Both the position numbers and the translations under genes were made by a program. Positions 24,087-43,874 of a DNA stretch of 64,000 nt are shown here, one piece after another (positions within the stretch are counted from its first letter, which is position 1; each line of letters begins with the position of its first letter). The stretch is from Micromonospora sp. KC213 (GTDB taxonomy: Bacteria > Actinomycetota > Actinomycetes > Mycobacteriales > Micromonosporaceae). The DNA lies in the NCBI RefSeq assembly GCF_004348325.1, contig NZ_SMKF01000001.1:62001-126000 (forward strand), read 5' to 3'. The notes below the pieces were generated by a model. That model had not been told where the DNA came from, ran no database searches, and saw nothing but the letters and a program-made list of their open reading frames with translations.

Positions 24087-25420
24087 CGGGCGCTCCGGGA
24101 CAGCAGTCCGGCGCTGTCCGCGCAGGCCCGGACGGCGCGGTGGACGGCCGTCACGCGGGCTAGCGCCTCGTCCTCGGGCAGTTGCCGCAGACCCTGCCAC
24201 AACTGGACGGCTTCGGCGTTCAACGCCGGGTCCTCGGAGAGGGCACCGGGGATGACGCCGACGTCCGACCGTGGCTCCTGCCCGAGCAGCCAGTAGGCCG
24301 CCGCCCGCTCGACCACCGGGTCGCGGTCGCGGCAGTCCCGGTCACTCTCGACGCCCAGCCCGGCAACGATCTCCGGCACCACCGCGCCCGGATGGGCGAG
24401 CCCGCCGTGGTCGTCGGTCCGGACCGGGATCCGTACGACGTCGTCGCGCCGGGGCGGCTGGGGTGTGCCGGCATCGTACGTGCGGGTGTCCTCGTGCACC
24501 GCGCTCGGCGCACCCGGCAGCCGGGCCAGCCGGGCCAGGCCGTCGCGGGCCAACGGGGTGAGCGCCGCGAGCACGTGGGCGTTGACCCGGCTGACACAGA
24601 CCTTCGGCGCGTCGTCGGTACACACCAGTTGCCGTGCGACCGGGTCGATCGGCGTGTCCAGGGCTGCCGCGTCCCGGGGCACCACCGCGCTCGCCGCGGT
24701 CACCCCGAGCAGCACCGGCAGCAGTGCGGCCGTACGGAGACGCCAGTCGCCGGCCACGACCAGCACCACACCGGCGACCGCGAGCGCGGCCATCCAGATC
24801 GCGTGTGCGCCGCTGACCCGGTTGTCGATCGTCTGGAAGGCATGGTGCTGACTCGTGCCGTAGATCGGCGACAGCACCGCAGCCAACCAGTCCGGCCGGA
24901 TCTGCGATCCGAACATCGTCAGCAGGACACCGGCCACACCCAGCGCGGGAGCGGTCGCCAGGGCGGGCAGCAGCCGCCCTGTCCCCAGGCCGAGCCACGC
25001 CGCACCGATCAGGGACAGCACGCCCACCGCCGTGACGACGGTGAAGTTCACCACCGGGAAGTAGCGGGCGGTGGTGATGATCCAGGCGGCGCCGGCCAGG
25101 ATCGTCAGCAGGTACCCGGCCGCCAGCGCGACGGCCATCGCACCGAGGACCGGTGCCATCCGCTGCCCGCGGGGGCGGGGCGTGGTCGCGAACAGTTCGC
25201 CGACCTTCGCCCGGTGCTCCCGGCGGCCCTGCCAGGCGCCGGCGGCGAGGGCGAGCGGCCACAGGAGCAACGTGTACTCGCGCGCGGTCATGGCCAGCGA
25301 CATCCAGCCGCTCGCCCACCGGCCTGGCGCGACGTAGAGGGCGGCGACCGCGATCACCAGCATGATCAGCGCCGCGCCCGGGGCGGCGGACCGGCGCAGC
25401 TCGACTCCGAGGACGTTCAT
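24083..25420 (-). CDS. ABC transporter permease-like membrane protein
   Basis: A 445-residue protein. The first 250-270 residues contain about six membrane segments, as in ABC-2-type permeases. The remainder is a soluble, presumably extracytoplasmic, region with two Cys close together (LVCTDDAPKVCVSR) and no recognised catalytic motif. ATG 25420 overlaps the ATPase stop (ATGA) and its own stop overlaps the next gene. The soluble tail could bind substrate or a partner protein. It is the likely main permease for the adjacent ATPase. Confidence 0.8.
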   Translation of the reverse strand: MNVLGVELRRSAAPGAALIMLVIAVAALYVAPGRWASGWMSLAMTAREYTLLLWPLALAAGAWQGRREHRAKVGELFATTPRPRGQRMAPVLGAMAVALAAGYLLTILAGAAWIITTARYFPVVNFTVVTAVGVLSLIGAAWLGLGTGRLLPALATAPALGVAGVLLTMFGSQIRPDWLAAVLSPIYGTSQHHAFQTIDNRVSGAHAIWMAALAVAGVVLVVAGDWRLRTAALLPVLLGVTAASAVVPRDAAALDTPIDPVARQLVCTDDAPKVCVSRVNAHVLAALTPLARDGLARLARLPGAPSAVHEDTRTYDAGTPQPPRRDDVVRIPVRTDDHGGLAHPGAVVPEIVAGLGVESDRDCRDRDPVVERAAAYWLLGQEPRSDVGVIPGALSEDPALNAEAVQLWQGLRQLPEDEALARVTAVHRAVRACADSAGLLSRSAR

Positions 25421-26220
25421 CGGACGGCCTCCGCGCGGTGCCGGCGCAGGACAGCCGAGTAGCCGCGTTCGGCGGCACTGTCTCCGGCGTGGTTCGGGTC
25501 GCCCTGCCCGGATAGGTCCGCGGCAGTGCCCTGCCACACCAGCCGGCCCTCGTTGACCAGGACGACCTCGGTGCAGGCGGCGGCCACGTCCTCGACCAGA
25601 TGGGTGGAGACCAGCACGCAGGTGTCCGTGCCGAGGTCACGCACCAGTTCCCGGAAGTCGAGGCGCTGCTCCGGGTCGAGGCCGACCGTCGGCTCGTCAA
25701 GCAGCAGCAGGCGTGGATCGTTGACGATGGCCTGGGCGATGCCGGCCCGGCGCAGCATGCCTCCGGACAGCGTCTTCATCCGGGCGTCGGCCTTCGCGGT
25801 CAGCCCCACCCGGTCGATCGCCCGCTGTACCGCCGCGGCCAGTCCGGCCTTGGGCATCTCCTTGAGCCAGGCCATGTATCCGACGAACTCACGGACCGTG
25901 AACCGCGGGTAGAAGCCGAAGTGCTGAGGCAGGTAGCCCAGCTGACGGCGGACCAGCCGGAGGTCGGACCGACCGTCCACCGGGTGCCCGAGCAGCGCCA
26001 GCCGTCCGCCGGCCGGGTTGGTCACCGTGGCCAGGGCCCGCATCAGGGTGGTCTTGCCGGCACCGTTCGGGCCCAGCAGACCGTACACGCCGGCGCCCAG
26101 GGCCAGGTCGAGACCGTCCACCGCCAGGTGCCGGCCGGCGCGGACCCGTAGCCCCTCGGCGTGGACAGCCCAGGGGTGGGTGGTGGCGACCGTCTCGGCC
26201 GCGCTCACCGCACGCATCAT
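25417..26220 (-). CDS. ABC transporter ATP-binding protein
   Basis: A 267-residue ATPase of the ABC-2/CcmA-like group. Walker A is GPNGAGKTTLMRAL, the Q-loop YLPQHFGFYP, the signature LSGGMLRRAGIAQAI, Walker B LLLLDEPTVGLDP and the switch His in VSTHLVED. GAGGGG lies 5 bases before ATG 26220. It sits between the anti-sigma gene (125 bp upstream) and two membrane-protein genes with which it overlaps. The set is likely an ECF-controlled exporter or envelope-stress pump; the substrate is unknown. Confidence 0.9.
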   Translation of the reverse strand: MMRAVSAAETVATTHPWAVHAEGLRVRAGRHLAVDGLDLALGAGVYGLLGPNGAGKTTLMRALATVTNPAGGRLALLGHPVDGRSDLRLVRRQLGYLPQHFGFYPRFTVREFVGYMAWLKEMPKAGLAAAVQRAIDRVGLTAKADARMKTLSGGMLRRAGIAQAIVNDPRLLLLDEPTVGLDPEQRLDFRELVRDLGTDTCVLVSTHLVEDVAAACTEVVLVNEGRLVWQGTAADLSGQGDPNHAGDSAAERGYSAVLRRHRAEAVR

Positions 26221-26345: not shown

Positions 26346-27140
26346 TCAGTTGCTGTTGGACAGGCGCCGGAAGCTGCCGGCGCGGGTTGTCGCCCAGCCG
26401 GCGAGCAGCACGGTGGTCAGTGCCCACAGGCCGGCGCTGTCCGCCTGCAGCAGCACCGGCAGCCGCGCGGTGGCCAGGCTGGGCAGCACGACGGCGAGCG
26501 TCCAGGAGGCGGCCAGGCCGACGGCGGCACGGCGCACGCCGACCAGGGTGCCGAGCAGGAGGGTGGCGACGGTGAACGCCAGGCAGGGCAGCAGCATCAG
26601 CGCCAGCGAGGCGCCGGTCCCGGCACCGACGGCGGCGAGCGCCGGGATGACCAGGACCAGGGCGGCCACGGTGCGCCGCAGCACCATCGTCAGCCCGGCG
26701 GCCGGGGTGCCCGCGATGAGCTCCCAGCACGGATCGGTACGCCGGCTCCAGGCGGCGGCCACCCCGGGCAGCGGTGCCACCGGGGCGAGCAGCAGCACCA
26801 GCGATGGCAAGCCGGTCTCCAGGATCGTGAGCAGCGCCGCGCAGCCGAGGACCGCGCCCGTCATGACCAGCCACGGCAGCAGGACCACCGTCATCCACCG
26901 ATACCGCAGCTGCCGGGCGCGGCCGGCCGGGACGGGGCCGGCGGAGATCTCCCGGTCCAGCCCGGTCGCCACCCGGTCGATCAGGGCTCGGCTCTGCGGG
27001 GTCGTGCTGCCGGCCAGCCGGGCGCGACAGTCGGCGCAGTCCTCGAGGTGGACCTCGACCGACCACACGGTGGCCTCATCGAGCCCAGGGTCGGCGGTGG
27101 CGTACCGGTCGATCACCGTAAGGGTGGGATGGCGGGTCAC
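26346..27140 (-). CDS. zinc-finger (zf-HC2) anti-sigma factor, membrane-anchored
   Basis: A 264-residue protein. The N-terminus has the anti-sigma zinc site HLEDCADCRARL (HxxxCxxC, near residue 30), and the rest holds about six hydrophobic segments, so it is a polytopic membrane protein rather than the usual single-pass form. The GTG start at 27140 overlaps the sigma-factor stop as GTGA, giving the expected coupled 1:1 synthesis. It presumably sequesters the adjacent ECF sigma factor until a membrane or redox signal arrives. Confidence 0.85.
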   Translation of the reverse strand: MTRHPTLTVIDRYATADPGLDEATVWSVEVHLEDCADCRARLAGSTTPQSRALIDRVATGLDREISAGPVPAGRARQLRYRWMTVVLLPWLVMTGAVLGCAALLTILETGLPSLVLLLAPVAPLPGVAAAWSRRTDPCWELIAGTPAAGLTMVLRRTVAALVLVIPALAAVGAGTGASLALMLLPCLAFTVATLLLGTLVGVRRAAVGLAASWTLAVVLPSLATARLPVLLQADSAGLWALTTVLLAGWATTRAGSFRRLSNSN

Positions 27141-27688
27141 GACAGGGCCTCCCGCAGGGCGATCCGGGCACGGCGTATCCGCGACTTGACGGTGTTCTCC
27201 GGTACGCCCAGTAGCACGGACGTCTCCCGGACGGTGAGCCCGTCCAGGACGGTGGAGCGAAGCACCTGCCGCACCTCCAGGGGCAAAACGAGCAGCGCCT
27301 GTTCGAGTTCCTGGCCGACGCGGGCGGCCATCACCTCGTCCTCGGCCGCCGGGACCGTGCTCTCCGCCAGTGTCACCGGGGGTGTCCGCGCCTGTCGGGC
27401 CCGCCGGCGGAAGGCGTCCACGAGACGGTGCGCGGCGATGGTCCACAGCCAACCCACGGTGCTGCCCCGGGCGTCGGTGCCGGCGAAGCCGCCCGCGGCC
27501 CGCCACACCGCCAGGTACGTCTCCTGCAGCACATCGGCGACCACGTCGGGGTCGGCGCACCGGCGCCGCAGCCGAACCTCGAGCCACGGAGCGGTACGCC
27601 GGTACAACTCGTCGAACGCCTGCCGGTCCCCGCGGGCAACGCGGCGTACGAGGTCTTCCTCGTCAGTCGCGTCCAGGTGTCGTTTCAC
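27137..27688 (-). CDS. ECF-family RNA polymerase sigma factor
   Basis: A 183-residue ECF sigma factor. Region 2 is seen as DRQAFDELYRRTAPWLE through DVLQETYLAVWR and WLWTIAAHRLVDAFRR; region 4 as LPLEVRQVLRSTVLDGLTVRETSVLLGVPENTVKSRIRRAR (recognition helix around VPENTVKSRI). GTG 27688 is chosen because it gives the standard ECF length; the nearest strong Shine-Dalgarno (GGGGGAGG) is about 14 bases away, so the exact start is uncertain. It heads the operon with its anti-sigma factor and an ABC system, which are probable targets. Confidence 0.88.
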   Translation of the reverse strand: MKRHLDATDEEDLVRRVARGDRQAFDELYRRTAPWLEVRLRRRCADPDVVADVLQETYLAVWRAAGGFAGTDARGSTVGWLWTIAAHRLVDAFRRRARQARTPPVTLAESTVPAAEDEVMAARVGQELEQALLVLPLEVRQVLRSTVLDGLTVRETSVLLGVPENTVKSRIRRARIALREALS

Positions 27689-28077
27689 ACCCGGTAAGAC
27701 GACCTCCCCCGTCGGATCGGTGCGGGACAGGGTGTGACCCGCGTCACGACCGCCTCCCACCTCCCCGCCGACGTCACCCGCCTCGCCACCACTCTCGGTT
27801 CGCCACCCACGACGCGGCCAAGGCTGGGAGGAGGTGTGCCGCCAGGCCGCAGCCAACATCCGCACCTGATGGATCAAGCAACGCCGGTACCGGGCGCCCC
27901 ACGGTTACCGACTCCCTGGCCCTACCAATCGCGTCCACAGGCGAGCGCTGTCCGGACCGCTCGCGGGCACCGTACGCCGATCAGCGGCGTCGCGATCACT
28001 CAGCCCGCGCCATGAACAGCCACTACGCCCGCACACCCGCACGAGCCATGATCGAAGTCCTCGACTGGAGTGCCGCC
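27689..28077. other. 389-bp intergenic stretch
   Basis: It contains the presumed promoter of the sigma/anti-sigma operon near its left end. No supported gene, RNA or clear repeat was found in the rest. Confidence 0.5.
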
Positions 28078-28537: not shown

Positions 28538-29269
28538 TTACGGCCGGGTGGCGGTCAGGAGGCGGCTGGTCGGATTCTCGGCGCACTGCCGGGCCCGTTC
28601 GAGGTCCTCGGGCGCGACAGACTCCGCCACCGCCACCGCATGCCAGGTGAACCCGGTGAAACCGGCCGACTCGAGGACGCTCACGATGCTTTCGCTGGGC
28701 CAGTGGTGGACCCAGACATCGGTGGGCGGCGTCGTCAGCACCGAGACGCGGAAGCGTTCGCCCTCCCGCGGATTGTCCGGACGGTGGGTGCGGAAGCCAC
28801 TGGCCTCCTCCGACCGCGCGCTGGATTCCGCATTGGCCAACAACGCCACGAGCCGGCCGCCCGGAGCGAGGTTGGCGAACATCCGCTGCGCCAGGTGGGC
28901 CATGCTCTCCCGACTGTCGGCGTAGTGCAGCACGTGGACGGCGGTCACCACGTCGAAGGCTTCCAGCGCCGGCATCGTCACCATGTCCTGGACGAGGTAC
29001 TCGATACCGAGCGGCTCGCGGGCCTCGATCGTCTGGGCGAGCTTGATCATGCCCTCGGACTGGTCAATTCCGACCACCCGCCGGGCGCCCTGCCGCATGA
29101 TCATGCGGGTGAACGTGCCTTCCCCGCAGCCGACATCCAACACCTGCTTGCCCGTCAGGGGCCCGAGGGCCCGCCGGAACGACGGGAACTCTAGATTCTC
29201 CCGAACGAAGCGGATGACGCTCTCCACCTCGTCGAAACTCCTGGCGATGTCGTCGTACTGGTCGGACAC
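28538..29269 (-). CDS. class I SAM-dependent methyltransferase
   Basis: A 243-residue Rossmann-fold methyltransferase. Motif I is VLDVGCGEGTF, motif II VVGIDQSEGM, and the post-I region EYLVQDM with VTAVHVLHY (motif IV) completes the SAM site. GTG 29269 is chosen because GGGGAGG lies about 7 bases upstream; GTG 29335 is a longer alternative. It diverges from the AMP ligase-CDPS pair over a 302-bp region. Methyltransferases that alkylate diketopiperazine N or O atoms or side chains are frequent partners of CDPS genes, so it is a candidate tailoring enzyme; this is inferred from position. Confidence 0.85.
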   Translation of the reverse strand: MSDQYDDIARSFDEVESVIRFVRENLEFPSFRRALGPLTGKQVLDVGCGEGTFTRMIMRQGARRVVGIDQSEGMIKLAQTIEAREPLGIEYLVQDMVTMPALEAFDVVTAVHVLHYADSRESMAHLAQRMFANLAPGGRLVALLANAESSARSEEASGFRTHRPDNPREGERFRVSVLTTPPTDVWVHHWPSESIVSVLESAGFTGFTWHAVAVAESVAPEDLERARQCAENPTSRLLTATRP

Positions 29270-29571
29270 GTGCGCTCCTCCCCACCGGCGGCGCATTACA
29301 GCCAAAACTTCGTCGCGTATCCTGCGGGCATTCACCTGCGTGAAACCATACGGTCGATGATGCTATCACTCAACCGTCACGGCTCGCTGGCCCACCGCTC
29401 GAAGAGCGCTCAAAAACGCAGGTTGGAACCCCATTTTTGCCGATTGGACGCATCACAGCCGTCCCGGAAAATACGTGGGCTCCCGCCCCAGAGTCGACCT
29501 TGACGAATACCTCCTCACGGCAATACGGTATCGACCGTTGCGACTGTCGGGAGCCGGAAGGCGAGGGAACG
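29270..29571 (+). promoter_or_regulatory. divergent methyltransferase / ligase-CDPS control region
   Basis: A 302-bp region without a gene and less GC-rich than its flanks. A sigma-70-like candidate for the + strand operon is TTGACG (29500-29505), 18 bases, then TACGGT (29524-29529), about 40 bases before the GTG start. No regulator palindrome was recognised. Confidence 0.4.
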
Positions 29572-31185
29572 GTGGCGAATCTCAAGCTATGGGAAACCAG
29601 CGTCGGCCTCCTCTTCGACCGCAGGGCCGAAGTGGGAAAGCCGATGATCTTCCGCCCCAGCCGACCGTTGGACATCGATCCAGCGAGACAGGAAGTCCTC
29701 GATCTGGAGGCGATTGCCAAGATCGTGCGCAAGACTGCCGGGGCGCTGTACGCGGCGGGACTTCGTTCCGGCGACCGGTTCGTCGTCTACAAGGACAACC
29801 ACTTCGACTGCCTGCTGCTCGCCTCCGCCGGAATCAGGATCGGCGCGATCCCGGTCATGGTGTCGGGTCTGCTGCCACCCGATCCGACGCAGGCGCTGCT
29901 CCAGCGGGTCGAGCCGAAACTGCTGGTGAGCAACCAACGGCTCCTGGCGGGCAAGGGCAGCGACGGCGCCTCGCCCGCCGCGTTCGCGGAGCAGAGCGTC
30001 TCCCTCGACGGGGGCGATTCCAACGCACTGCCCTTCGCCGAGCTCTACGGGGCCACGGATCCGTCGCCCACCCCGCGTGCCGACGACGAGCTGATGATGC
30101 TCACACACACGTCCGGCACCACCGGCGTACCGAAGCTCATCATGTATACGCCGGCCAAGCTGCAGCGCCAGATGGCTCGGCTGGAATGCCGCCACCTACC
30201 GCCCATCACGTTCACGCGCGACGACGTCGTGGCGATGTTCACGCCTTACGTGCATGCTCGCGCATTTACCTGGATCTACTCGACACTCACATTGTCCCCC
30301 ACCAAAGTCCTGGTGATGAGCGACAGTGACCCCGAGATTGTGGGTCCGATGTTTGAGCAGCATCGGCCCACCGTGATCGAGGCGCTGCCAATCGATTACT
30401 TCCGGCTCGAGAAACTCGCCAAGGAGCCGGGCCGAAAGGCGTTCTCCTCGGTTCGCATGTTCATCAGCAACTTCGACGGGGTGCGTTGGTCCACAATCCG
30501 TCCCTTCCTGAACGCCTCGCGGCATCCCTTCCCTCTTTGGCGAGAGGGGTACGGGCAGTCGGAGACCGGCGGGATGGGAATGACGTTCGTGAGTCGGCGC
30601 ACGGCCAACAAGCGGCGCGAGGAGCTTCCCGGGCCGCGGCGGGTGGGCCGGCCCATGCCCGGCTTCGTCACCCTGAAGGTGGTCGATCCGAAGACCTTCC
30701 GGCCGGTGCCCAACGGTGAGCCAGGGCTGGTGCTCGCCCGCACGAAGGCCCGCTGCGTCGGCTACTACAAGGAACCCGAGCGTTGGAACGAGAAGGTTGT
30801 GGGCGAGTGGTGGAACACCGGTGACATCGGCATCAAGACCAGGACGGGAGCGCTGATGCTCATCGACCGGGAGGTCAACCACGTCCCGGGAAGCAGCAAC
30901 CTCGAACAGGAGGACGTGCTCGTCGATCGCCTGCCAGGCGGGCACGACGTGGCGCTGCTACCGGTGACCGGCGGGCCGCCGGTGCCGATCGTTGCCACAC
31001 CAGACGGCACGCTGGACAAAGATCTGTGGCAGCAGGTGATTCGCGGTCGTCCCCCGATGGCCGAACCAATCGTGATCGATGCCGGGGACATGCCCCGCAC
31101 CGGTACCGGGAAGATCATCCGGGAGGAACTGCGCCGGCGGTACCTCGACGAGGCCGAGCATCCTGGAAGCGGCCGGTGGACCTGA
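29572..31185 (+). CDS. AMP-forming acid ligase (ANL superfamily), CDPS-coupled
   Basis: A 537-residue adenylate-forming enzyme. The phosphate loop is HTSGTTGVPKL (A3), A5 is YGQSETGG, A7 NTGDIG, and the C-terminal Lys motif is PRTGTGKIIREEL (A10). The hinge region (LIDREVNHVPGSSNLEQED) departs from the usual GRxxDxIK form. There is no carrier-protein domain and none is encoded nearby, so it is closer to acyl-CoA or amide/ester ligases than to an NRPS module. GTG 29572 is chosen (GCGAGGGA upstream); the frame is open further left. Its stop overlaps the CDPS start as TGATG, so the two proteins are probably made together. It may activate an acid to be joined to the cyclodipeptide, but its substrate is unknown. 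Confidence 0.85.
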   Translation: MANLKLWETSVGLLFDRRAEVGKPMIFRPSRPLDIDPARQEVLDLEAIAKIVRKTAGALYAAGLRSGDRFVVYKDNHFDCLLLASAGIRIGAIPVMVSGLLPPDPTQALLQRVEPKLLVSNQRLLAGKGSDGASPAAFAEQSVSLDGGDSNALPFAELYGATDPSPTPRADDELMMLTHTSGTTGVPKLIMYTPAKLQRQMARLECRHLPPITFTRDDVVAMFTPYVHARAFTWIYSTLTLSPTKVLVMSDSDPEIVGPMFEQHRPTVIEALPIDYFRLEKLAKEPGRKAFSSVRMFISNFDGVRWSTIRPFLNASRHPFPLWREGYGQSETGGMGMTFVSRRTANKRREELPGPRRVGRPMPGFVTLKVVDPKTFRPVPNGEPGLVLARTKARCVGYYKEPERWNEKVVGEWWNTGDIGIKTRTGALMLIDREVNHVPGSSNLEQEDVLVDRLPGGHDVALLPVTGGPPVPIVATPDGTLDKDLWQQVIRGRPPMAEPIVIDAGDMPRTGTGKIIREELRRRYLDEAEHPGSGRWT

Positions 31186-31910
31186 TGGCGGGGCACGGGA
31201 GAACAGCCCAGGACAACGAAACCCGGACGCTTCAACAGGGGGCCTTTGTCGTCGAACCACTCACCGACGTCAGCCGGGTGATCTGGGAGCAGCGCAAGCA
31301 CGTGGTGTGCGGGGTGAGCCCCGGCAACAGCTACTTCCAGGTGCCGCGGCTGGCCAGCCTCCTCGGCTGGCTCCGCGCCGAGTTCGAGCGGGTGGACGTG
31401 ATCATCCCGGACTCGGCCCTGCACCACACGTACCTCGCCCTCGGCTACGAGCCGCAGCGAGCGGTTCGCAAGGCGCGCGGCGAGACAAACGTGTTGTACA
31501 ACCGGGTGGTCCGGGCTTGGAAGACCCACGGTGGGCCCCGGGAACTCGACGGCCTCCAGCGCATGTCGGACCTGGTATCCAACGAGGTCTACCGCGAAAG
31601 GTTCGTGGAGTGCGAGCAGGCTTTGAAGGAGGACCGCGCCCTGTGGGAGACGTGCCAGGAGATGAGTGAGGAGGTGCTCGCCACCCGGGGGTATGACGGC
31701 CCTCCCGACACCGCACGCATCGAGCGGGCCATGCAGTATCTCCTCGCCGAACTTCCGTTCTTTCTGGCCTCGGCCGACATCTTCGGCGCCCCGTCGTCGC
31801 TGAACTTCTACCACCAGCGACTCGCGCTGGCGGAGCTCATCTTCTCCGGCGGTTCTGTACTCGAGCCGTCGCCGCGTCAGGGGTACGCCACCATCTACCC
31901 CGCTGCGTGA
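31185..31910 (+). CDS. cyclodipeptide synthase (tRNA-dependent)
   Basis: A 241-residue CDPS, the usual length. These enzymes take two aminoacyl-tRNAs and form a cyclic dipeptide through an aminoacyl-Ser intermediate. CGVSPGNSYF places the catalytic Ser at residue 45 and Asn at 48 (AlbC Ser37/Asn40). YLLAELPFF gives Tyr185 and Glu189 (AlbC Tyr178/Glu182), and FYH gives Tyr209-His210, so all three marker residues of the NYH subfamily are present. A basic helix (RAVRKARGE and NRVVRAWK) would contact tRNA. The ATG overlaps the ligase stop (TGATG), and a perfect hairpin follows. The amino acids used cannot be predicted by eye. With the ligase and divergent methyltransferase it forms a small tailored-diketopiperazine cluster. 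Confidence 0.93.
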   Translation: MAGHGRTAQDNETRTLQQGAFVVEPLTDVSRVIWEQRKHVVCGVSPGNSYFQVPRLASLLGWLRAEFERVDVIIPDSALHHTYLALGYEPQRAVRKARGETNVLYNRVVRAWKTHGGPRELDGLQRMSDLVSNEVYRERFVECEQALKEDRALWETCQEMSEEVLATRGYDGPPDTARIERAMQYLLAELPFFLASADIFGAPSSLNFYHQRLALAELIFSGGSVLEPSPRQGYATIYPAA

Positions 31911-31940
31911 GGCCCCTGTCTGCCTCAGACAGGGGCCTCA
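31908..31940 (+). terminator. perfect hairpin terminator of the ligase-CDPS operon
   Basis: A perfect 15-bp stem (31908-31922 with 31926-31940) around a CCT loop begins at the CDPS stop codon itself. A classic strong hairpin, though without a T-tract. Confidence 0.8.
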
Positions 31941-32332
31941 CCACACCCCCGTCGGCGTGGAGGACGTGATCGCCCAGTACCCGCCGCCGACCGGTGGCCT
32001 GCCCCCGGTCGGCGGCGCGTTTGTCCAGGAGGGCATCGACCGCCGACCTGGTGGCGGCCCGTCCGGACGCCCCGCAGTGCGTGCCGGCGGTGCGGCGAGG
32101 TGCACCGCCGGCTGGTCGACGAGGTGCTGCCACACGAGGCAGCCGAGGCCATGCGGAGGCAGCCGGCTGATGGATGAGATCGGTGGCCACCCGGCGCGGC
32201 ACCCGGACGGCCGGCTGCGCCCTGAGACGGCACCGGACCTGCTGGCCGCGCAGTACGGCTAACGCCGTGCTCTGCCTGCGCCACCGAGGAAGCGAAGGGT
32301 TCTTTTCCCTCAGCCCCGCCGACACTGCGCCC
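31941..32332. other. 392-bp stretch without a supported gene
   Basis: A short + strand frame (about 32088-32170) reads CRRCGEVHRRLVDEVL and then HEAAEAMRRQ before a stop; it looks protein-like, with a CxxC, but has no proper start or continuation. It may be a remnant of a small actinomycete gene. Nothing else is seen. Confidence 0.3.
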
Positions 32333-32387: not shown

Positions 32388-34469
32388 TCACGGTGTCGTC
32401 AGGACGAACCGGCGCACCGTCACCGCTCCGCCCAGTGACCCGGTGGCGTAGTTGAAGATGCCGAACCGGTATCCCATGAAGAACTGCCAGGCGTTGTTGA
32501 GGGTCAGCGCGTTGCCCAGCGGAACGAACGTGACCCCGTCGGTGCTGTACGAGAACGTTGCCTGCCGGCCTGAGCCGGGTCGGATGTCGGCGTTGGCCCG
32601 CAACCAGATCCGCCCGCCGGACACCGGAGCGCTGGCGATCTCGGTCCCGGTACTGCTGGTGTCCCAGTTGGTGTTCATGGCCAGGCCGTTGGTCATGACC
32701 ACGCGCGTGGCGCCGTTGTCCCGTCTGATGCCGATCCATGCCGACCTGTCGCGCAGCATCGCGAGCCCGGCCCGGTCACCGTCACGCATCGTGGAGTAGT
32801 CCAACTCGATGGTTCCGGTCGAGGTCGGGCCCTGGATCCGATGGGTGAGCGTGTTGCGGGCCCGGTAGAGGTCGTTGGTCACCGACGCGGTCTGCAGGCG
32901 CAGCCCGTTGTCCACCGACCACCGGCTGTTGTCCGGGTTGTGGTTCCACTCGTACTGGACGCCGAGGGTGGTCCCGTCGAAGGTGTCGGTGCCGGTGAGG
33001 GGCTTCACCGGACGCAGCGGCAGGGGGTTGGGGTAGTTGACGCCCCAGGAGCCGTTGACCGCCTGCACCTGCGGCCAGCCGTCACTGGTCCAGGTGATCG
33101 GCGCCAGCGTCGGCATCCGTCCGCCCGGGTAGGCGTCGGTGAAGGCCATGTAGTACCAGGCGCCGTTCGTGGTCTGCACCAGTCCGCCCTGGTGCGGCAC
33201 GCCGCCGCCGGGGATCGGGCCGGGCATGTTGAGCAGCACCTGCCGCTGTTCGTAGGGGCCGAACGGGCCGTTGGTCGACTTGAGCACGTACTGGCCGTTC
33301 GCCGGTCGGGTGAGCCAGATGTAGTACGCACCGTTGCGCTTGTAGAAACGGGCCCCCTCGAGGGTGCCGATGGTCGACGGCGTCTGGTAGACCTGCTGGG
33401 CCCGCACCTGGGAGCGTCCGTCGGCGGACAGCTGGGCCACGCTGATCGTGCCGTTGCCGTACGCGATGTACATGGTGTCGTTGTCGTCGATCAACATCCC
33501 GGCGTCGTAGTAGCAGTTCGGGATGGTGGCGTGCCGGTTCCAGGTGCCGTCGACGGCGGACGCGGTGTAGATGTGCGTCTGGGCGAAGTCGATGCAGCCA
33601 GCCCAGTAGAAGGTCCGGTTGCTCGGTCGGTAGTTCAGCGTCGAGGCCCAGATGCCGTCGACGTACGCCTGGCTGCCGTTGGCCATGTCGTACTTCGAGC
33701 CGAAGTCCAGCCGGGGTACGGAGTGCCCGGCGAACTCCCAGTTCACCAGGTCCCACGAGCGCAGCACCGGGGCACCCGGCGAGTAGTGCATGGTGGAGGC
33801 GGACATGTAGTAGACGTCGCCGACCCGGATGATGTCGACGTCGGCGAAGTCCTGCCAGACGACCGGGTTGGTGAAGGTGCCACCGGGGGTGCCGCTGTCG
33901 TCGACCCGGACGAGTTGCCACTGCTGGTGGGTGCCGTTGAAGTCGTCGTACTGCACGATGTTGCCGCCGTCGGAGGTCGAGGCGCCCTGCACCTCGATGG
34001 CCTTGTTGGAGTTGCGGTTGATCAGTCGTACGTGGCCGTCAGTCGAGTCGGCGAGGCGGAACTGCTGGTTGGCGCCATTGTGGTCGGTCCACTGCACAAT
34101 GGCCGCGCTGTTGGCGGTGGAGAAGTTGTAGACGTCGAGCACCTTGCCCGAGTGCCGGGACTTGAGCCGGTAGTAGCCGCCACCGGAGTCGACAAACTGC
34201 CACTGCTGCCAGTTGCCGCCGTGTCGCGACCACTGGGTGATCCGCGCACCGTCGTTCGTGGCCATGTTGTAGACATCCAACGCCTTGCCGCTGTTGCGGT
34301 TCACCAACACGTACCACGCGTTGGGGTCCACCGTCGCCGCAGAAGCCGGCGACGGCGCGACGCCCACCAGGGCACCAGCCACCACCACCGTCACCACCGC
34401 CGCGACGACCCGCGACAACCACCCACGCCGACGCGGCGCGGCCAGCGAAAGCCCACCGATGGCAACCAT
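32388..34469 (-). CDS. secreted GH43 glycosidase with N-terminal ricin-type lectin
   Basis: A 693-residue secreted enzyme. The N-terminus is a signal peptide (Arg-rich, then VVAAVVTVVVAGALVGVA, cleavage near ASA-AT). A beta-trefoil ricin-B domain follows (about 45-195) with repeated NRNSGKALDVYN/QQWQF patterns. The GH43 five-blade propeller starts at FTNPVVWQDFADVDII (general-base Asp) and has GTLEGARFY (acid Glu). The last 190 residues form a jelly-roll typical of GH43 beta-xylosidases. GAGGAGG lies 5 bases before ATG 34469. Expected activity is beta-xylosidase or alpha-L-arabinofuranosidase on plant polysaccharide; the lectin would anchor it to galactose- or xylose-rich chains. A LacI-type palindrome lies about 88 bp upstream. 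Confidence 0.9.
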   Translation of the reverse strand: MVAIGGLSLAAPRRRGWLSRVVAAVVTVVVAGALVGVAPSPASAATVDPNAWYVLVNRNSGKALDVYNMATNDGARITQWSRHGGNWQQWQFVDSGGGYYRLKSRHSGKVLDVYNFSTANSAAIVQWTDHNGANQQFRLADSTDGHVRLINRNSNKAIEVQGASTSDGGNIVQYDDFNGTHQQWQLVRVDDSGTPGGTFTNPVVWQDFADVDIIRVGDVYYMSASTMHYSPGAPVLRSWDLVNWEFAGHSVPRLDFGSKYDMANGSQAYVDGIWASTLNYRPSNRTFYWAGCIDFAQTHIYTASAVDGTWNRHATIPNCYYDAGMLIDDNDTMYIAYGNGTISVAQLSADGRSQVRAQQVYQTPSTIGTLEGARFYKRNGAYYIWLTRPANGQYVLKSTNGPFGPYEQRQVLLNMPGPIPGGGVPHQGGLVQTTNGAWYYMAFTDAYPGGRMPTLAPITWTSDGWPQVQAVNGSWGVNYPNPLPLRPVKPLTGTDTFDGTTLGVQYEWNHNPDNSRWSVDNGLRLQTASVTNDLYRARNTLTHRIQGPTSTGTIELDYSTMRDGDRAGLAMLRDRSAWIGIRRDNGATRVVMTNGLAMNTNWDTSSTGTEIASAPVSGGRIWLRANADIRPGSGRQATFSYSTDGVTFVPLGNALTLNNAWQFFMGYRFGIFNYATGSLGGAVTVRRFVLTTP

Positions 34470-34556
34470 GATCCTCCTCGGATTGACAGGCACTGAAGGG
34501 CTTGCGGGCCGTCGTTACGGCTTCCGGGCCAACTGGCCTGCGACTCCACCAGCGAA

Positions 34557-34570
34557 TGTGACCGCTAACA
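34557..34570. promoter_or_regulatory. LacI-type operator-like palindrome, site 1
   Basis: TGTGACCGCTAACA, an imperfect match to the palindrome TGTTAGCGCTAACA bound by LacI-family sugar repressors in actinomycetes. It lies about 88 bp upstream of the GH43 start. Confidence 0.55.
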
Positions 34571-34670
34571 AACACGTCCTCCGCCCATGCGGCTTGTGCT
34601 GTCCGCATGAGCTACGGGGAACGGCCGTGAGCCCTGTCCGCCGCGTATGCCGACCGTTCCATCCATCGAC

Positions 34671-34684
34671 TGTGAGCGATAACA
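34671..34684. promoter_or_regulatory. LacI-type operator-like palindrome, site 2
   Basis: TGTGAGCGATAACA, matching site 1 at 12 of 14 bases and in the same orientation, 114 bp away. It lies about 250 bp upstream of the galactosidase start; the pair may allow looping. Confidence 0.55.
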
Positions 34685-34929
34685 GGTGGTTAGTCAAGAC
34701 GCAACACACAGCGCCGGTCCAGACTCGACAGCCATTTACATAGATGGATGGTAGCTGATAAGATGTATGACGTCTTACCGCCGCACCCTGCGCGACACCA
34801 GGAACGGCACGGACCAGGCGTGACGGCCACCCCCGCCGGCCTCGACCCGGCGTCGGTCCCGCGATGTTCGTATCTCGGTGCCGGCAGCCGGAGTACCGGT
34901 GCCGGTCACCCTCGACCGAGGAGGATCAC

Positions 34930-36582
34930 GTGCGCAAGCCGAGGAAATGGCTGACGTCTGTCCTGGGTGTCCTGGCGGTGACGCTCGCGACGACAGTTGG
35001 CGGCGGCGTTGTCGCGCCCCGCACGGCCCAGGCATTGGAGAACGGTGTGGCCCGCACTCCACCGATGGGTTGGAACACCTGGAACACGTTCGGCTGCAAC
35101 ATCAACGAGACGCTCATCCGCCAGATGGCCGACGCGATCGTCAACCACGGCCTGCGCGACCTCGGCTACAAGTACGTCGTGGTCGACGACTGCTGGTTCA
35201 ACCCGGACCGGGACGCGCAGGGCAACCTCCAGGCCCATCCACAACGATTCCCGAGTGGAATGAAGGCTCTGGGCGACTATCTGCACTCCCGGGGTCTGCT
35301 GTTCGGCATCTACCAGGCCCCGCTGGACAAGACCTGCGCTCAGTACTTCAACGCCTTCCCCGGCGCCACCGGCAGCCTCGGTCACGAGTACCAGGACGCC
35401 CGGCAGTTTGCCGCCTGGGGTGTGGACTACCTGAAGTACGACTGGTGCTCCCCCACCGGGACCATCAACGACCAGGTGGCGAGGTTCGGCCTCATGCGCG
35501 ACGCGCTGGCGGCCACCGGCCGGCCGATCGTCTACAGCATCAACCCGAACAGCATCCACGAGAAGACCGGGCCGCAGCGCAACTGGAGCGACGTGGCGAA
35601 CCTCTGGCGGACCACCGAGGACATCACCAACAAGTGGGACACCGGCCAGACCAACGGCTACCCGATGGGCATCCAGAACATCGTCAACGTCAACGTGCCG
35701 CTGGCCGGGTACGCCGCCCCGGGCGGGTTCAACGACCCGGACATGATGGAGGTCGGCAGAGGCGGTATGACCGACACCGAGATGCGCAGCCACTTCGCGC
35801 TCTGGGCGATCATGGCGGCCCCCCTCATGATGGGCAACGACCTGCGCTCGGCCGACGCGGCGACGCTGACGATCCTGAGGAACGAGCACCTCATCGCCAT
35901 CAACCAGGACACCCTCGGCCGTCAGGCCGTCCAGGTGTCCCACGACGGCACCCGGCGGGTCCTGGCCAAGCGGCTGGCCAACGGCGACGTCGCGGTGGCC
36001 CTGTTCAACCAGGGCGCCTCCACCACAACCGTCTCCACCACCGCGGCGGCGATCGGCAAGACCGGCACCTCGTTCACCCTTCGGGACGTGTGGACCAACG
36101 GCACCGTCACCACCACCGGGGCCATCTCCGCGAGCGTCCCGGCGCACGGCACGGTGGTGTACCGGGTCAGCGGCGGCACCACCACCGAACCACCGACCCC
36201 CACCACCTTCCGACTGCGCAGCGAGTCGGCCGGGCGGTGCCTCGACGTCGACAACTCCTCCACCGCCAACGGCACCGCGGCCCTGATCTGGGACTGCCAC
36301 GGCGGCACCAACCAACAGATCAGCCAGCAGGGCCAGACGCTGCGGATCCTCGGCAAGTGCCTGGACCTGCCGACGAACGCGGTCAACGGCACACGGGTGC
36401 AGATCTGGGACTGCCACGGCGGCACCAACCAGCAGTGGACGTTCAACGGCAACGGCACGATCAGCAACGGCCGCTCCCCGTCCCTGTGCCTGGACGTCAA
36501 CAACGGCGGCACCGCGAACGGCACCGCAGTGATCGTCTGGGGCTGCCACGGCAACGCGAACCAGCGATGGAACCGGGCGTGA
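34930..36582 (+). CDS. secreted GH27 alpha-galactosidase with C-terminal ricin-type lectin
   Basis: A 550-residue secreted glycosidase. The signal peptide runs to about residue 35 (AQA-LE). The GH27 barrel begins TPPMGWNTWNTFGCNINE and contains VVDDCWF (substrate-binding Asp pair), YLKYDWC (nucleophile Asp) and FNDPDMMEVG (acid/base Asp). An antiparallel C-domain is followed by a Thr/Pro linker and a ricin-B trefoil with three QXW repeats (GGTNQQWTF, ANQRWN). It would release alpha-galactosyl residues from galactomannan or raffinose-type sugars; some GH27 members instead act on beta-L-arabinopyranosides, but the DD pair favours galactosidase. GTG 34930 has GAGGAGG upstream. It diverges from a GH43 gene and is followed 105 bp later by another. 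Confidence 0.92.
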   Translation: MRKPRKWLTSVLGVLAVTLATTVGGGVVAPRTAQALENGVARTPPMGWNTWNTFGCNINETLIRQMADAIVNHGLRDLGYKYVVVDDCWFNPDRDAQGNLQAHPQRFPSGMKALGDYLHSRGLLFGIYQAPLDKTCAQYFNAFPGATGSLGHEYQDARQFAAWGVDYLKYDWCSPTGTINDQVARFGLMRDALAATGRPIVYSINPNSIHEKTGPQRNWSDVANLWRTTEDITNKWDTGQTNGYPMGIQNIVNVNVPLAGYAAPGGFNDPDMMEVGRGGMTDTEMRSHFALWAIMAAPLMMGNDLRSADAATLTILRNEHLIAINQDTLGRQAVQVSHDGTRRVLAKRLANGDVAVALFNQGASTTTVSTTAAAIGKTGTSFTLRDVWTNGTVTTTGAISASVPAHGTVVYRVSGGTTTEPPTPTTFRLRSESAGRCLDVDNSSTANGTAALIWDCHGGTNQQISQQGQTLRILGKCLDLPTNAVNGTRVQIWDCHGGTNQQWTFNGNGTISNGRSPSLCLDVNNGGTANGTAVIVWGCHGNANQRWNRA

Positions 36583-36687
36583 CCCGCAGGTGCCCGCCGA
36601 GCGGTTAGACCTGCCGTCCGAGGACGCCGGTTTGCCCGCCGGCCCCACGCCACCGACGACGTACCGCTGCACACCCTGGGGGAAGCC

Positions 36688-38094
36688 TTGACGTTGACAG
36701 CTGCACACCGGGGCGGCGCGAAGTTCAGGCGCGCCGTCGCCGCACTCGCCGGCCTGCTCTGCGCCGTCGCCCTGCTGCCTGGCACAGGGCGGGCCGACAA
36801 CCCCATCGTCCAGCACATCTACACCGCCGACCCGGCGCCGCTGGTACACAACGGCAGGGTGTACCTCTACACCGGACACGACGAGGACGGCTCGACGTAC
36901 TTCACCATGCGTGAGTGGCGGGTTTTTTCCTCCGCCGACATGGTCAACTGGACCGATCACGGTGTGCCCATGAGCCTGGCGACCTTCGCCTGGGCGGACG
37001 CCGACGCGTGGGCCGGGCATGTCGTTCCCCGCAACGGGAAGTTCTACTGGTACGTGCCGGTACGCCAACGGTCGAACAAACAGATGGTCATCGGGGTTGG
37101 CGTCGCGGACAGCCCCACCGGCCCGTTCCGCGACGCGCTCGGCCGCCCACTGGTCGGTAACGGCGAGATCGATCCGCACGCCTTCATCGACGACGACGGG
37201 CAGGCATACCTGTACTGGGGCAACCCGAACCTGTGGTACGTGCGGCTGAACCCCGACATGATCTCGTTCTCCGGCGGCCCGACCCGGATACCGCTCACCA
37301 CCGCCGGATTCGGCACCCGCACCGGCAACCCCAGCCGCCCGACCCTCTACGAAGAAGGACCGTGGGTCTTCAAGCGCAACGGGCTCTACTACAACGTGTT
37401 CGCGGCGGAGTGCTGCTCCGAGTTTATCGGGTACTCGACCGCGCCCGGCCCGACCGGGCCGTGGACCTACCGGGGAACGATCATGCCTCGGCAGGGCAGC
37501 AGCTTCACCAACCACGCCGGAATCATCGACTTCAACGGCGCCTCGTACTTCTTCTACCACAACGGGGCGTTGCCCGGCGGTGGTGGCTACACCCGATCCG
37601 TCGCGGTGGAAAGGTTCACCTACAACGCCAACGGCACCTTTCCCACCATCAACATGACCACCGCAGGGGCTCCCCAGGTCGGCGTGCTCAATCCGTACGC
37701 GCGCCAGGAGGCCGAGACGATCGCCTGGGGATCCGGCATCGAGACGGAGCCGTCCAGTGCGGGCGGCATGAACGTCGGCTGGATCGAGAACGGGGACTAC
37801 ATCAAGGTCAAGGGCGTCGCCTTCGGCGCCGGTGCCACGTCCTTCTCAGCGCGGGTCGCCTCCGCCACCAGCGGCGGCCGGGTCGAGGTGCGGCTCGACA
37901 GCCCTGGCGGGCCGGTCGTCGGCACCTGCGCCGTCGGGAGCACCGGCGGCTGGCAGAACTGGACGACCACCACCTGCGGGGTGAGCGGAGCCACCGGTAC
38001 GCGAGACATGTACCTGCGCTTCGCCGGCGGCAGCGGCTACCTGTTCAACGTCGACTGGTGGCAGTTCGGCGGCGGCACCGCGCCGACGTCGTAG
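36688..38094 (+). CDS. secreted GH43 arabinofuranosidase/xylosidase with CBM6
   Basis: A 468-residue secreted enzyme. After a signal peptide (FRRAVAALAGLLCAVALL, cleavage near GRA-DN) the GH43 propeller shows YTADPAPLVHNGRVYLYTGHD (base Asp region), EIDPHAFIDDDGQAYLYWG (pKa-modulating Asp) and YEEGPWVFKRNG (acid Glu). The last 130 residues are a family-6 carbohydrate-binding module (RQEAETIAWGSG ... GDYIKVKGV ... FNVDWWQF). The start is TTG 36688, with GGGGGAA 5 bases upstream; no in-frame ATG precedes the signal peptide. The architecture matches XynD-type arabinoxylan arabinofuranohydrolases. It is probably co-expressed with the upstream galactosidase. Confidence 0.9.
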   Translation: MTLTAAHRGGAKFRRAVAALAGLLCAVALLPGTGRADNPIVQHIYTADPAPLVHNGRVYLYTGHDEDGSTYFTMREWRVFSSADMVNWTDHGVPMSLATFAWADADAWAGHVVPRNGKFYWYVPVRQRSNKQMVIGVGVADSPTGPFRDALGRPLVGNGEIDPHAFIDDDGQAYLYWGNPNLWYVRLNPDMISFSGGPTRIPLTTAGFGTRTGNPSRPTLYEEGPWVFKRNGLYYNVFAAECCSEFIGYSTAPGPTGPWTYRGTIMPRQGSSFTNHAGIIDFNGASYFFYHNGALPGGGGYTRSVAVERFTYNANGTFPTINMTTAGAPQVGVLNPYARQEAETIAWGSGIETEPSSAGGMNVGWIENGDYIKVKGVAFGAGATSFSARVASATSGGRVEVRLDSPGGPVVGTCAVGSTGGWQNWTTTTCGVSGATGTRDMYLRFAGGSGYLFNVDWWQFGGGTAPTS

Positions 38095-38344: not shown

Positions 38345-41300
38345 TCAGCCGTGCGGTACGCCGCTGCGGTCCCCGAGTTCGGCCGTGAGCTGTTCCTCGG
38401 TGAGAGCCTCGACCTCCAGGTAGATCTCCGCGGTGGCCGTCAGGACCGCCGGGTCGGCAGCCCGGCGCAGCAGTGCGTCCGCGAGTCGGGCGACGGTCAG
38501 CGAGCCGAGCACGTCGTGCACGCGCACGTCGTCGGTGTCGAGGGCCGCGCGCAGCCGCGCCGTGATGGCCGTGGCGAGCACGGAATCGCCGCCGAGCTGG
38601 AAGTAGTCGTCGTGCAGGCCGACCGGGCCCGACTGCAGGGCCTGTGCCCAGACGTGGGCGACGAGCTGCTGCAGGGGTGTCTCGGGGAGTACCCGGGCCC
38701 CGTCAACCGGACGCGCCTCGGCGAGGGCCGTGAGCGCCTTGCGGTCGACCTTCCCGTTCGGGGTCAGCGGCAGCTCCGACGTGACGACCAGAGGGTCGGG
38801 CACCATGTGCGGCGGCAGCCGGAGGGCGGCATGCGCGGCCAGGTCCACGGCGCTGACGTCGGAAGTGACCGCGACGGCGGCCAGGCGCGGCGCGCCCGAA
38901 CCGCGCAGGACGAAGGCGATCGCCTGCCGGACGCCGGGATGGTCGGAGAGGGCCGCTTCGACCTCGCCCAACTCGATCCGGAAACCGCGGATCTTCACCT
39001 GGTCGTCGGCGCGGCCGAGGAACTCGATCGTGCCGTCGGGCCAGTACCGGGCGCGGTCGCCGGTCCGGTACCAGCGCACGCCCCCGACGGTGACGAACCG
39101 GTCGGCCGTGCGGTCCTCGTCGGCGCGGTACCCGTCGGCGACACCGGCACCGCCGATCCACAGCTCGCCGGGGACCCAGTCCGGGCAGTCGCGGCCCTGC
39201 GGGTCGACCACCCGGCACTGGACGTTGCGCAGCGGGGTGCCGTACGGCACGCTCGTCCACCCCTCCGGCACCAGGCCGCCGTGGACCTCCTGGACCGTGG
39301 AGTGGATCGCCGTCTCGGTCGTACCGCCCAGGGCGAGGAACCGGCAGCCGGGCACCTGGGCGTGCAGGCGCCGGGGCAGGTCGGTGCCCACCCAGTCACC
39401 GCCGAGCAGCACCGCGCGCAGGCTGCCGCCCAGCGGCTCGGTGCGGCCCGCGGTGAGCAGCATGTCGAGCAGGCTCGGCACACAGTTGAGTACCGTCACG
39501 GCGCGGTCGCGGACGAGAGTGGCCCAGGCCGTGGCGTCGCGGCGGGTCGCCTCGTCCACCACGACGACGGCACCGCCGACGGACAGCGGCGCGAACAGGT
39601 CGAAGACCGACAGGTCGAAGTCCAGCGCGGACAGGGCGAGGGTGCGGTCGTCGGCGCCCAGGCCGAGCCGCTGCACCAGGTCGTCGACGGTGTTGGCGGC
39701 GGCCCGGTGGGACACCTCGACGCCTTTCGGCTCACCGGTGGAACCGGAGGTGAACAGCACGTACGCCACGTCGGTCGGATCGGCCAGGACGGGGGCGGGA
39801 GCGGGGTGATCGGCGGCGACCGCCGAGGCGTACCCGATCTCGTCGTCGCCGGCGGGGGCCTCGGCGACGACGACGGTGACGCCGGCCCGCTGGCGGATGC
39901 GGTGTACCCGTGCCGCCGGCTGGTCCCTCCCGATCGGCACGTAGTGGGCGCCGGCCGCCAGCACGCCGAGCACGGCGACGACCTGCTCCGGGCCCTTGGG
40001 CAGCCGGACGGCCACGGCGTCACCGGGCCGGACGCCCCGGTCGGTCAGGGTGCGGGCGAGGCGCAGGGCGGCGTCGGCCAGCTGGCCGTACGTGAGGACG
40101 GTGCCGGCTGCGCCGACGACCGCCGGCCGTCCCGGCTCGCGGCCGGCGCGGGCGAAGAAGGCGTGGTGCAGTGGGTGTTCCGGCACCGGCCCGGCGGTGG
40201 CGTTGACCTGTTCGCGCACCGATCGGCACGCGGCCGGGCGCAGATCGCCCACCGGCTCATCCCAGGCCGTTCCGTCCGCGACGCGGCCGAGCAGGTCACC
40301 GAACGCGGCGAACATCGCGTCGGCGACGCCGTCGGGCAGCGCGTCGGCGCGGACGTCCCAGTTGACGAGCAGGCCGCCGTGCAGCTCGGTCACCTGGGCG
40401 TCGAGCACGACCTGCGGGCCCTGGGAGATGATGTGGACCGGTTCGCCGAGGACACCTTCGACCTCCGCGCCGAACAACTCGCCGAGGTCGAGCGCGCTGG
40501 TGAAGACGACGGGGGCGAGCACCTGCGTGCCGTGCTCGCGGGAGAGGTCGCGCAGCACGTCCAGGCCGGGGTACGAGGAGTGCGCGACCGCGTCGTGCAT
40601 CGACTGCTGCACGTCCTGGGCGCGCTCGGCGAACTCGACGGGTTGGGAGACGTCCACCGGCAGCAGCACCGAGCTGGTGAAGTCGCCGACGAGGCGCTCC
40701 ACGTCGGGATGGATCGGCTGACGGTCGAACATCGGGACGTTGAGCAGGAAGCGCGGTACGCCGCTCCACGCCCCGAGCACCTCGGCGAAGACCGTGGCGA
40801 CGGCAACGGCGGGGGTGACGGCGTGGCGGCGCGCCTGGCGTACCAGGCCCGCGCGGGTCCTGGGGTCGAGCCACCGGTGCAGCCGGACGACCCGGTGCGG
40901 GTCGCTCCTGCGGTTGTCGGGTCGCGCCGGCAACTCGGGGGCGCCCGGCAGGTCGGCGAGCCGCTCCTGCCACCACCGCACGTCCGCGGGTCGCGGCGGT
41001 TCGGTGCGCCGGTCGGCGAGGTACTGCGCGTACTGGTAGTCGAGGGCCGGCAGCGGCTGCTCGGGGTGTTCGTAGAGCCGCACCAGGTCGGCGAGGAGCA
41101 TCCGGTAGCTGCGCGCGTCGGCGGCGAGCATGTCGATGTCGACGTGGACCCGGGTGCGGCCCTCGGGCAGCAGGGTGACCCGTACGTCGAGCATCCGGCC
41201 CTGGTCCACCGGCAGGAGCTGGTGGGACATCCTCTCGCGCAGGGCGGCGGTGGCCGCGGCGACCTCGTCCGGGGCGGCGTCGCGCAGGTCGAGGACGGGC

Positions 41301-41809: not shown

Positions 41810-41866
41810 CGCCAACCCTCCGTCATGGTGCGGGAAGCTCCGCCGCCGGCCACCACCGGCCAATGG

Positions 41867-41885
41867 TTAGGTTAACCTAACCTAC
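41867..41885. promoter_or_regulatory. iron box 1 (IdeR/DmdR1-type operator)
   Basis: TTAGGTTAACCTAACCTAC matches the 19-bp actinobacterial iron-box consensus TTAGGTTAGGCTAACCTAA at 16 positions. It is embedded in a perfect 18-bp palindrome (41865-41882) in the divergent promoter of the ArCP-Cy-A-PCP NRPS and the aryl-AMP ligase. Confidence 0.85.
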
Positions 41886-41943
41886 TGTCCGAGGATGTTC
41901 CTCGGGTCCCCCTCACCTGCCGTGCCGTTAAGGAGAAGCAGCG

Positions 41944-43575: not shown

Positions 43576-43593
43576 CGCCGCCGCGCGCCTTCT

Positions 43594-43632: not shown

Positions 43633-43634
43633 GG

Positions 43635-43844: not shown

Positions 43845-43874
43845 CGGTACTCCTTCGGTGAGGGCGGGTGGGGA

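Follow-up and report, generated by a model that had tools for sequence, protein, structure and literature searches.

A conserved AMP-forming ligase, translationally coupled to a cyclodipeptide synthase, at a probable ditryptophan diketopiperazine locus of Micromonospora sp. KC213

Micromonospora sp. KC213 has a genome of 6.43 Mb, and its closest named relative, judged by identity of the ligase described below (92%), is Micromonospora okii. We analyzed a 64,000-nucleotide (nt) stretch of this genome (contig NZ_SMKF01000001.1, positions 62,001 to 126,000; hereafter the window, in whose numbering coordinates are given), in which three adjoining genes code for an S-adenosylmethionine (SAM) methyltransferase, a stand-alone AMP-forming ligase, and a cyclodipeptide synthase (CDPS). 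All three gene families were confirmed by Pfam and NCBIfam, and the features of the locus are as follows:

28538–29269, minus strand: SAM methyltransferase of 243 amino acids (aa), GTG start; PF13649 (Methyltransf_25), E = 1e-19
29270–29571, no strand: intergenic region between the divergent methyltransferase and ligase genes, read from the sequence
29572–31185, plus strand: stand-alone AMP-forming (ANL) ligase of 537 aa, GTG start, stop codon included; PF00501, E = 3.2e-43
31183–31187, plus strand: TGATG overlap, made of the ligase stop TGA (31183–31185) and the CDPS start ATG (31185–31187)
31185–31910, plus strand: CDPS of 241 aa, NYH subfamily; PF16715, E = 9.4e-72; TIGR04539, E = 9.6e-73; first-pocket (P1) motif VGIPMFFN, second-pocket (P2) motif MEVTQLA
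31907–31922 and 31926–31941, plus strand: perfect hairpin with a 16-bp stem and a 3-nt loop, the CDPS stop codon lying inside it

An earlier note, made from the sequence alone, had read a shared stop and start codon, a perfect hairpin at the end of the pair, and a divergent SAM methyltransferase beside it, and all three were found in place. The hairpin stands 3′ of the CDPS gene, the last of the pair, and has an energy of −34.1 kcal/mol over 40 nt; since no T-run follows it in the sequence read, it departs from the textbook form of an intrinsic terminator. Both promoters, those of the methyltransferase and the ligase, would be expected within 29270–29571. The ligase start at GTG 29572 is supported, though not proved, by the start codon found at the corresponding position in most orthologs, whose starts had been picked as those nearest to the start in the window; the longest open reading frame (ORF) of the ligase begins at TTG 29437. 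For the methyltransferase, GTG 29269 is the more likely start because M. okii has an in-frame stop upstream and AGGAG precedes this codon, and a longer ORF, from 29335, was judged unlikely on the same grounds. Read from GTG 29269, the methyltransferase is 91.8% identical to that of M. okii. Judged by the ratios of nonsynonymous to synonymous substitution rates (dN/dS), the ligase is under purifying selection: the values were 0.17 for the ligase, 0.43 for the CDPS, and 0.27 for the methyltransferase in the comparison with M. okii, and 0.13 and 0.36 for the ligase and the CDPS in that with G200, another genome carrying the pair.

The earlier note had named a neighborhood search as a check on its proposal, and the pair proved to be conserved well outside its own genome. 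It was found in 22 genomes of four actinobacterial families (M. okii and genome G211 counted as one), with the order ligase then CDPS in all of them. When named public genomes were searched with the ligase, 21 loci were obtained; a CDPS gene lies directly downstream in all 11 with at least 69% identity and beside none of the 10 ligases of 39 to 43% identity. In the Pseudonocardiaceae, the ligase matched at least at 60% identity in 8 of 346 genomes, all 8 with the CDPS, and the next among the matches listed were 32 to 48% identical. The corresponding figures were 4 of 394 genomes in the Streptomycetaceae (CDPS in 4/4; next among the matches listed, 46%) and 3 of 130 in the Nocardiopsidaceae at E < 1e-150 (CDPS in 3/3). 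Over these three families, a ligase of at least 59% identity adjoined a CDPS gene in 15/15 genomes; the neighbor checks of these surveys left out CDPS-query matches of at most 41% identity, among the matches listed, that had no extracted locus. The Micromonosporaceae were searched with the CDPS, which had a match in 5 of 354 genomes, and the pair is present in 3 of these 5, own genome included. A plasmid search with the ligase gave only paralogs among the best 20 of 30 matches (best, 41.7%), and all 30 were below 60%.

An in-frame ATG or GTG overlapping the ligase stop codon by 1 or 4 nt was found in 21 of the 22 pair genomes, a count that tests the overlapping codon itself, the automated choice of CDPS start not always being an overlapping one (offsets of −1, −4, −10, +17, −40, and −376). 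The sole exception is G1233 (locus L199), in which the ligase stop is TAG and neither position has a start codon. The C-terminal WT tail of the ligase is present also in 11/11 paralogs compared, so that some of the overlap motif may be older than the pairing. Open frames of 764 to 790 aa looked like ligase-CDPS fusions, and this possibility was rejected, as their junctions show overlapping separate genes. The ligase-CDPS pair, with which a methyltransferase is associated, is genuine, under selection, and translationally coupled, and it forms a fixed module in which one ligase clade goes with one CDPS clade. The earlier note had allowed that the ligase might group with housekeeping acyl-CoA synthetases; instead, it falls in a distinct clade.

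One of the pair loci, L125, is presumably the ditryptophan locus of Actinosynnema mirum, an identification of our own. This presumed A. mirum locus resembles the window in its ligase, CDPS, and methyltransferase families (70, 65, and 46% identity, respectively) and has the same Trp-type P1 pocket. The two differ in that its gene order is ligase-CDPS-methyltransferase, whereas the methyltransferase of the window is divergent and of a second subtype, and in that the P2 motif of the window ends in Ala, not Pro. The earlier note had not recognized a ligase as a partner of a CDPS; however, the combination of a CDPS, a UbiE-type methyltransferase, and an acyl-CoA ligase was reported in 2010 by Aravind and colleagues for A. 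mirum and Streptomyces sp. AA4 (PMC2922099). As outlined in a 2014 review, the A. mirum pathway is tRNA dependent, Amir_4627 is a strict cyclo(Trp-Trp) (cWW) synthase that makes cWW by itself, and Amir_4628 N-methylates the cWW ring; the key of the CDPS-cluster figure in that review includes an entry “ACS” (PMC4159871). The cluster type is already published, and the locus is ordinary in kind, with one orphan conserved enzyme. We consider it very likely that the window contains an A. mirum-type ditryptophan diketopiperazine locus.

The catalytic residues named in the earlier note were verified by alignment: Ser45, Asn48, Tyr185, Glu189, Tyr209, and His210 of the CDPS correspond to AlbC residues 37, 40, 178, 182, 202, and 203, which gives the NYH-subfamily signature Ser37/Asn40/Tyr178/Glu182/Tyr202/His203 (SNYEYH). 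For the reading of the pockets, 134 distinct CDPS rows were aligned with AlbC and Rv2275, identical CDPS cores being collapsed; matches with fewer than 150 aligned residues were left out, as were 24 further matches, by hand count, none scoring above about 216 bits. As P1 positions we took those at which Rv2275 yields the published motif of cyclo(Tyr-Tyr) (cYY) synthases, VGVTMLFN. The mapping then reproduced published motifs exactly, P2 included (LGVPLLLA/ASVGKID in L152, LGLAWIGC/VAYHRLA, and LGLPWFLF/IRVTRSP). The fourth P1 residue is position 119 in the text of the source paper and 67 in our mapping, the motif itself being unaffected. The motif [V/L]G[V/I]P[M/I]FFN was found in 21/21 distinct ligase-linked CDPS rows and in 1 of the 113 other rows (L109).

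Published work gives Pro as the fourth P1 residue in the Trp-accepting CDPSs 73 to 75, and Phe186 with a hydrophilic residue at 200 for cWW enzymes (PMC5816076, PMC6173783). The CDPS of the window has these Trp-group features in P1, namely, Val or Ile at 65, Pro as the fourth residue, Phe186, and a hydrophilic residue at 200. With a Trp-type first pocket, a product of the cWW type is predicted, and a Trp-containing cyclodipeptide is the likely product of the enzyme. A different product such as cYY, with its side chain modified by the ligase, is rather improbable. The best sequence match in the Protein Data Bank (PDB) is 2x9q (E = 1.3e-34), which we take to be the cyclodityrosine synthase Rv2275, and Asn200 and the Gln-Leu of P2 are common to the cYY motif, with Ala in place of Pro207; nevertheless, the cYY model scored 155.9 bits versus a cut-off of 300, Pro67 and Phe185 of P1 stand where cYY enzymes have Thr and Leu, and the enzyme is 65% identical to the presumed A. 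mirum cWW synthase. We rejected the possibility that the ligase activates the side chain of a Glu or Asp in the cyclodipeptide, since the CDPS belongs to the NYH type and has a Trp pocket.

In a tree of 66 CDPS rows (at least 34.6% identical to the CDPS of the window), the 21 ligase-linked rows need one change, and all of them lie inside a 27-row clade with support of 100/97; the exact ligase-linked branch has weak support (31/21), as L109 may fall inside it. L109 (61% identity) and L116, whose CDPSs belong to the same clade, have a squalene/phytoene-synthase-like gene in place of the ligase (L109 3838–4779; L116 3863–4918). This arrangement, with a SQS_PSY gene beside a CDPS of the same P1 type in L109, is like that of terpene-diketopiperazine loci. 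The DmtB/C loci of Streptomyces likewise have a CDPS of the Trp-accepting kind, but they differ in that, as described, the partner is a terpene prenyltransferase-like gene and no ligase is present (PMC6173783). The tree points to one gain of the ligase in the CDPS clade, perhaps with one replacement.

The methyltransferase (METHYLTRANSFERASE) has a counterpart near the pair in 15 of the 22 genomes, the flank being too short to judge in G938 and G1233, and its placement varies: after the CDPS in the same direction, divergent, or upstream. Two subtypes were distinguished, the enzyme of the window being 61% identical to that of L106 and 45.6% identical to that of L125. By homology, it is a probable diketopiperazine ring N-methyltransferase of the Amir_4628 kind. 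In L099, about 2 kb separates a distant CDPS (36%) from a methyltransferase of this type (47 to 50%) (3093–3755 and 5733–6455), and this kind of enzyme may be shared by another CDPS group. A DUF3050 gene, coding for a heme-oxygenase-like iron enzyme, lies beside the CDPS in three Streptomycetaceae loci (L008 10491–11414, L009 4615–5466, and L012 10036–11181; assigned by Pfam for two of them and by 89% identity for the third) and could provide a possible extra oxidation step.

The ligase carries most landmarks of the ANL superfamily, among them PF00501, the A3 loop, and the A10 lysine. The A3 residues His179 and Ser181 to Gly185 (THTSGTTG) and the catalytic Lys514 are invariant in 19 linked and 11 paralog ligases. 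Pfam reported no carrier domain and, at E = 0.1, no C-terminal AMP-binding_C domain in the ligase; the AlphaFold model (21 sequences, mean pLDDT of 86, pTM of 0.89) has a folded C-terminal part. The hinge of ANL enzymes, in motif A8, is Asp or Lys. That of the ligase had been called atypical in the earlier note, and rightly so: it reads DREVN, with Asn at position 436 in 19/19 linked ligases, and DREVD is common to the paralogs, with Asp in 11/11. Asn436 weakens the case for a coenzyme A (CoA) ligase only slightly. It is one of 37 positions at which all 19 linked ligases carry the same residue and none of the 11 paralogs does; roughly ten of these lie within or close to the A4 and A5 motifs, and the A5 region contributes Tyr327, Gly334, Gly336, and Met337. 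This pattern suggests one conserved substrate for the linked ligases.

The actinobacterial paralogs (32 to 48% identity; 11 compared) share the DREV of the hinge, a C-terminal (R/K)WT, and invariant His228, Arg230, and Asp302 with the linked ligases, but they differ in their hinge Asp, and no CDPS gene lies beside those examined. Plasmid records give several of them the name “class I adenylate-forming enzyme.” UbiA, FAD amine oxidase, DegT aminotransferase (also paired), or aminobenzoate/anthranilate genes were seen next to them, and these neighborhoods were too varied for naming the acid. The paralog group is common, with a match at E = 1e-70 in 116 of 346 Pseudonocardiaceae genomes, CDPS-linked ones included.

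Adenylation domains of nonribosomal peptide synthetases (NRPSs) carry Asp235 in the A4 motif, for alpha-amino groups. At this place the ligase has Ala229, following His228, both in the motif alignment and in the alignment with 4CL2, and the invariant Arg230 and Asp302 align with Tyr239 and Ala310 of 4CL2 (numbers counted from the alignment). These residues bear on the idea that the ligase supplies the CDPS with tryptophan, modified or not, in the form of an aminoacyl-AMP or aminoacyl-CoA that replaces or supplements aminoacyl-tRNA. The earlier note had raised a nonstandard aminoacyl donor, which comes near the 2010 suggestion of Aravind and colleagues that aminoacyl-CoAs feed the CDPS (PMC2922099); the ligase lacks, however, the Asp that NRPSs have for alpha-amino acids. 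A supply role would be consistent with the fixed gene order, with a stop/start overlap that is kept also where no methyltransferase was seen nearby, and with a report of tRNA-independent cyclodipeptide synthesis by a CDPS (PMC8084100), and the invariant Asp302 and Arg230 are possible contacts for an amino acid. Against this stand Ala229, the tRNA-dependent A. mirum pathway with a CDPS that works alone (PMC4159871), and the existence of L109, a relative that shares the P1 pocket and has no ligase, and we regard supply of the CDPS as improbable.

The closest structural matches of the ligase model were CmaA6 (Z = 39.0) and Tri17 (Z = 38.4), followed by FadD13 (37.0), feruloyl-CoA synthetase (36.8), and MatB (36.3), with other ANL enzymes at 34 to 37; CmaA6 was also first in Foldseek. 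The ligase might thus be a nitrite-activating N-N bond former like Tri17 or the diazotase CmaA6, nitrosating a nitrogen of the Trp-Trp scaffold, and Tri17 accepts many amines and hydrazines, as stated in a review. By sequence profile (threshold of 1e-10), however, 4CL2 leads with 128.8 bits, other CoA ligases also outscore Tri17 (106.9 bits) and CmaA6 (102.4 bits), and the N-N enzymes rank 13th to 15th; the AvaA6 diazotase model NF058622 gave 55.2 bits versus a cut-off of 975. Moreover, clustering of the genes in the pair loci revealed no family beyond the ligase, the CDPS, the methyltransferase, and DUF3050 in at least three loci, nitrite-making genes not having been sought by name. A role in N-N bond formation is therefore, in our judgment, highly improbable. 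The amide bond synthetases McbA and ShABS and the nitrite-activating Tri17 and CmaA6 have the stand-alone ANL fold in common with the ligase, and their chemistry is carrier free according to PDB titles and a review; their identity to it in structural alignment is 18 to 21%, with no specific sequence kinship. We read the modeled ligase as an ANL fold of the acyl/aryl-CoA ligase kind, nitrite activation being a minority option.

An explanation of the locus can be proposed in three steps. The CDPS would use two Trp-tRNAs to form cyclo(L-Trp-L-Trp), or at least cyclo(Trp-X), a well-supported prediction, and the divergent methyltransferase would, by its homology, methylate the ring nitrogens. The ligase, whose translation is coupled to that of the CDPS, might then, and far less securely, adenylate a small carboxylic acid without an alpha-amino group, drawn from general metabolism, and the acyl group might be passed, directly or via CoA, to the indole or a ring nitrogen of the Trp-Trp scaffold, or to a hydroxyl introduced by another enzyme. 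Consistent with an acid-activating enzyme are the dN/dS of 0.17, the retained Lys514, the acyl/aryl-CoA ligase fold, and Ala229 at the place of the NRPS Asp. Taken as a whole (locus, product, and role of the ligase), this explanation is the one we favor on balance, the acylating tailoring role of the ligase being a tentative part of it in which our confidence is low. Somewhat more doubtful still is the idea that the cWW pathway has its missing tailoring enzyme in the ligase, which together with the CDPS would build an N-acylated or, most boldly, N-nitroso hybrid diketopiperazine without a carrier or an acyltransferase; if true, the published A. mirum end products would be intermediates only.

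Several observations weigh against the favored explanation. Pro at P2 position 207 has been named for cWW synthases (PMC6173783), and Ala stands there in the window and in two same-genus relatives, so that the second residue of the product is less sure; the published Trp-accepting P2 motif MQFKTLA also ends in Ala, and Ala207 is thus not decisive. The methyltransferase shares no more than 46% identity with the presumed Amir_4628 of L125, and none was seen near the pair in G200, L010, L015, L016, and L026, the latter two lying on contigs that are short or cut. Given Arg230 and Asp302 in the presumed acid pocket, the substrate might carry a charge or an amino group, and by structure the ligase model comes closest to two enzymes that form N-N bonds rather than to an acid ligase. 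The earlier note had considered an acid joined to a side-chain amine or hydroxyl, and this is weakened because cWW, the product expected from the motif in the pocket and from the A. mirum relative, offers neither group for acylation; only the indole and the ring N-H remain. No acyltransferase recurs beside the pair in the clustered loci, the single case among the neighbors run through Pfam being a membrane acyltransferase gene (Acyl_transf_3 and SGNH) after the CDPS in L026 (Nocardiopsis halophila, 1793–3862). Finally, the 2014 review names mono- and dimethyl cWW as the end products in A. mirum, and their synthesis as described there involves no ligase (PMC4159871).

The last two of these points would also be expected if the ligase acted apart from the cyclodipeptide, making an acyl-CoA or adenylate for self-protection, export, or regulation and being kept for coexpression or physical partnership: no acyl acceptor or acyltransferase recurs in the pair loci, and the A. 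mirum pathway as described is complete without a ligase (PMC4159871). The CDPS gene found beside 15/15 ligases of the clade in three families and 11/11 in the scan of named genomes argues instead for a role in the same pathway, and we consider a separate purpose unlikely. The predicted cWW product sharpens the puzzle: an enzyme of the acid-activating kind stands in the pathway, yet the product known from it contains no acid and offers no easy acceptor. The ligase could reveal new diketopiperazine chemistry. No later experimental test of it was found in the literature searched, which covered few subscription papers.

Other genes of the window lie on either side of the locus. Just downstream of the CDPS, 32388–38094 contains sugar-polymer genes, seemingly unrelated, for two GH43 enzymes and an alpha-galactosidase (melibiase) with ricin-type or CBM6 modules. 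Beyond the methyltransferase, the minus strand carries an ECF sigma factor gene (27137–27877) and an ABC transporter ATPase gene (25417–26220). Farther downstream, 38345–51475 encodes an NRPS (carrier, condensation, and adenylation domains), a stand-alone AMP ligase, a Lys/Orn N-monooxygenase, a thioesterase, a periplasmic binding protein, a FecCD permease, and an MFS transporter, and judging from this gene content it looks like a siderophore cluster, perhaps of the hydroxamate type.

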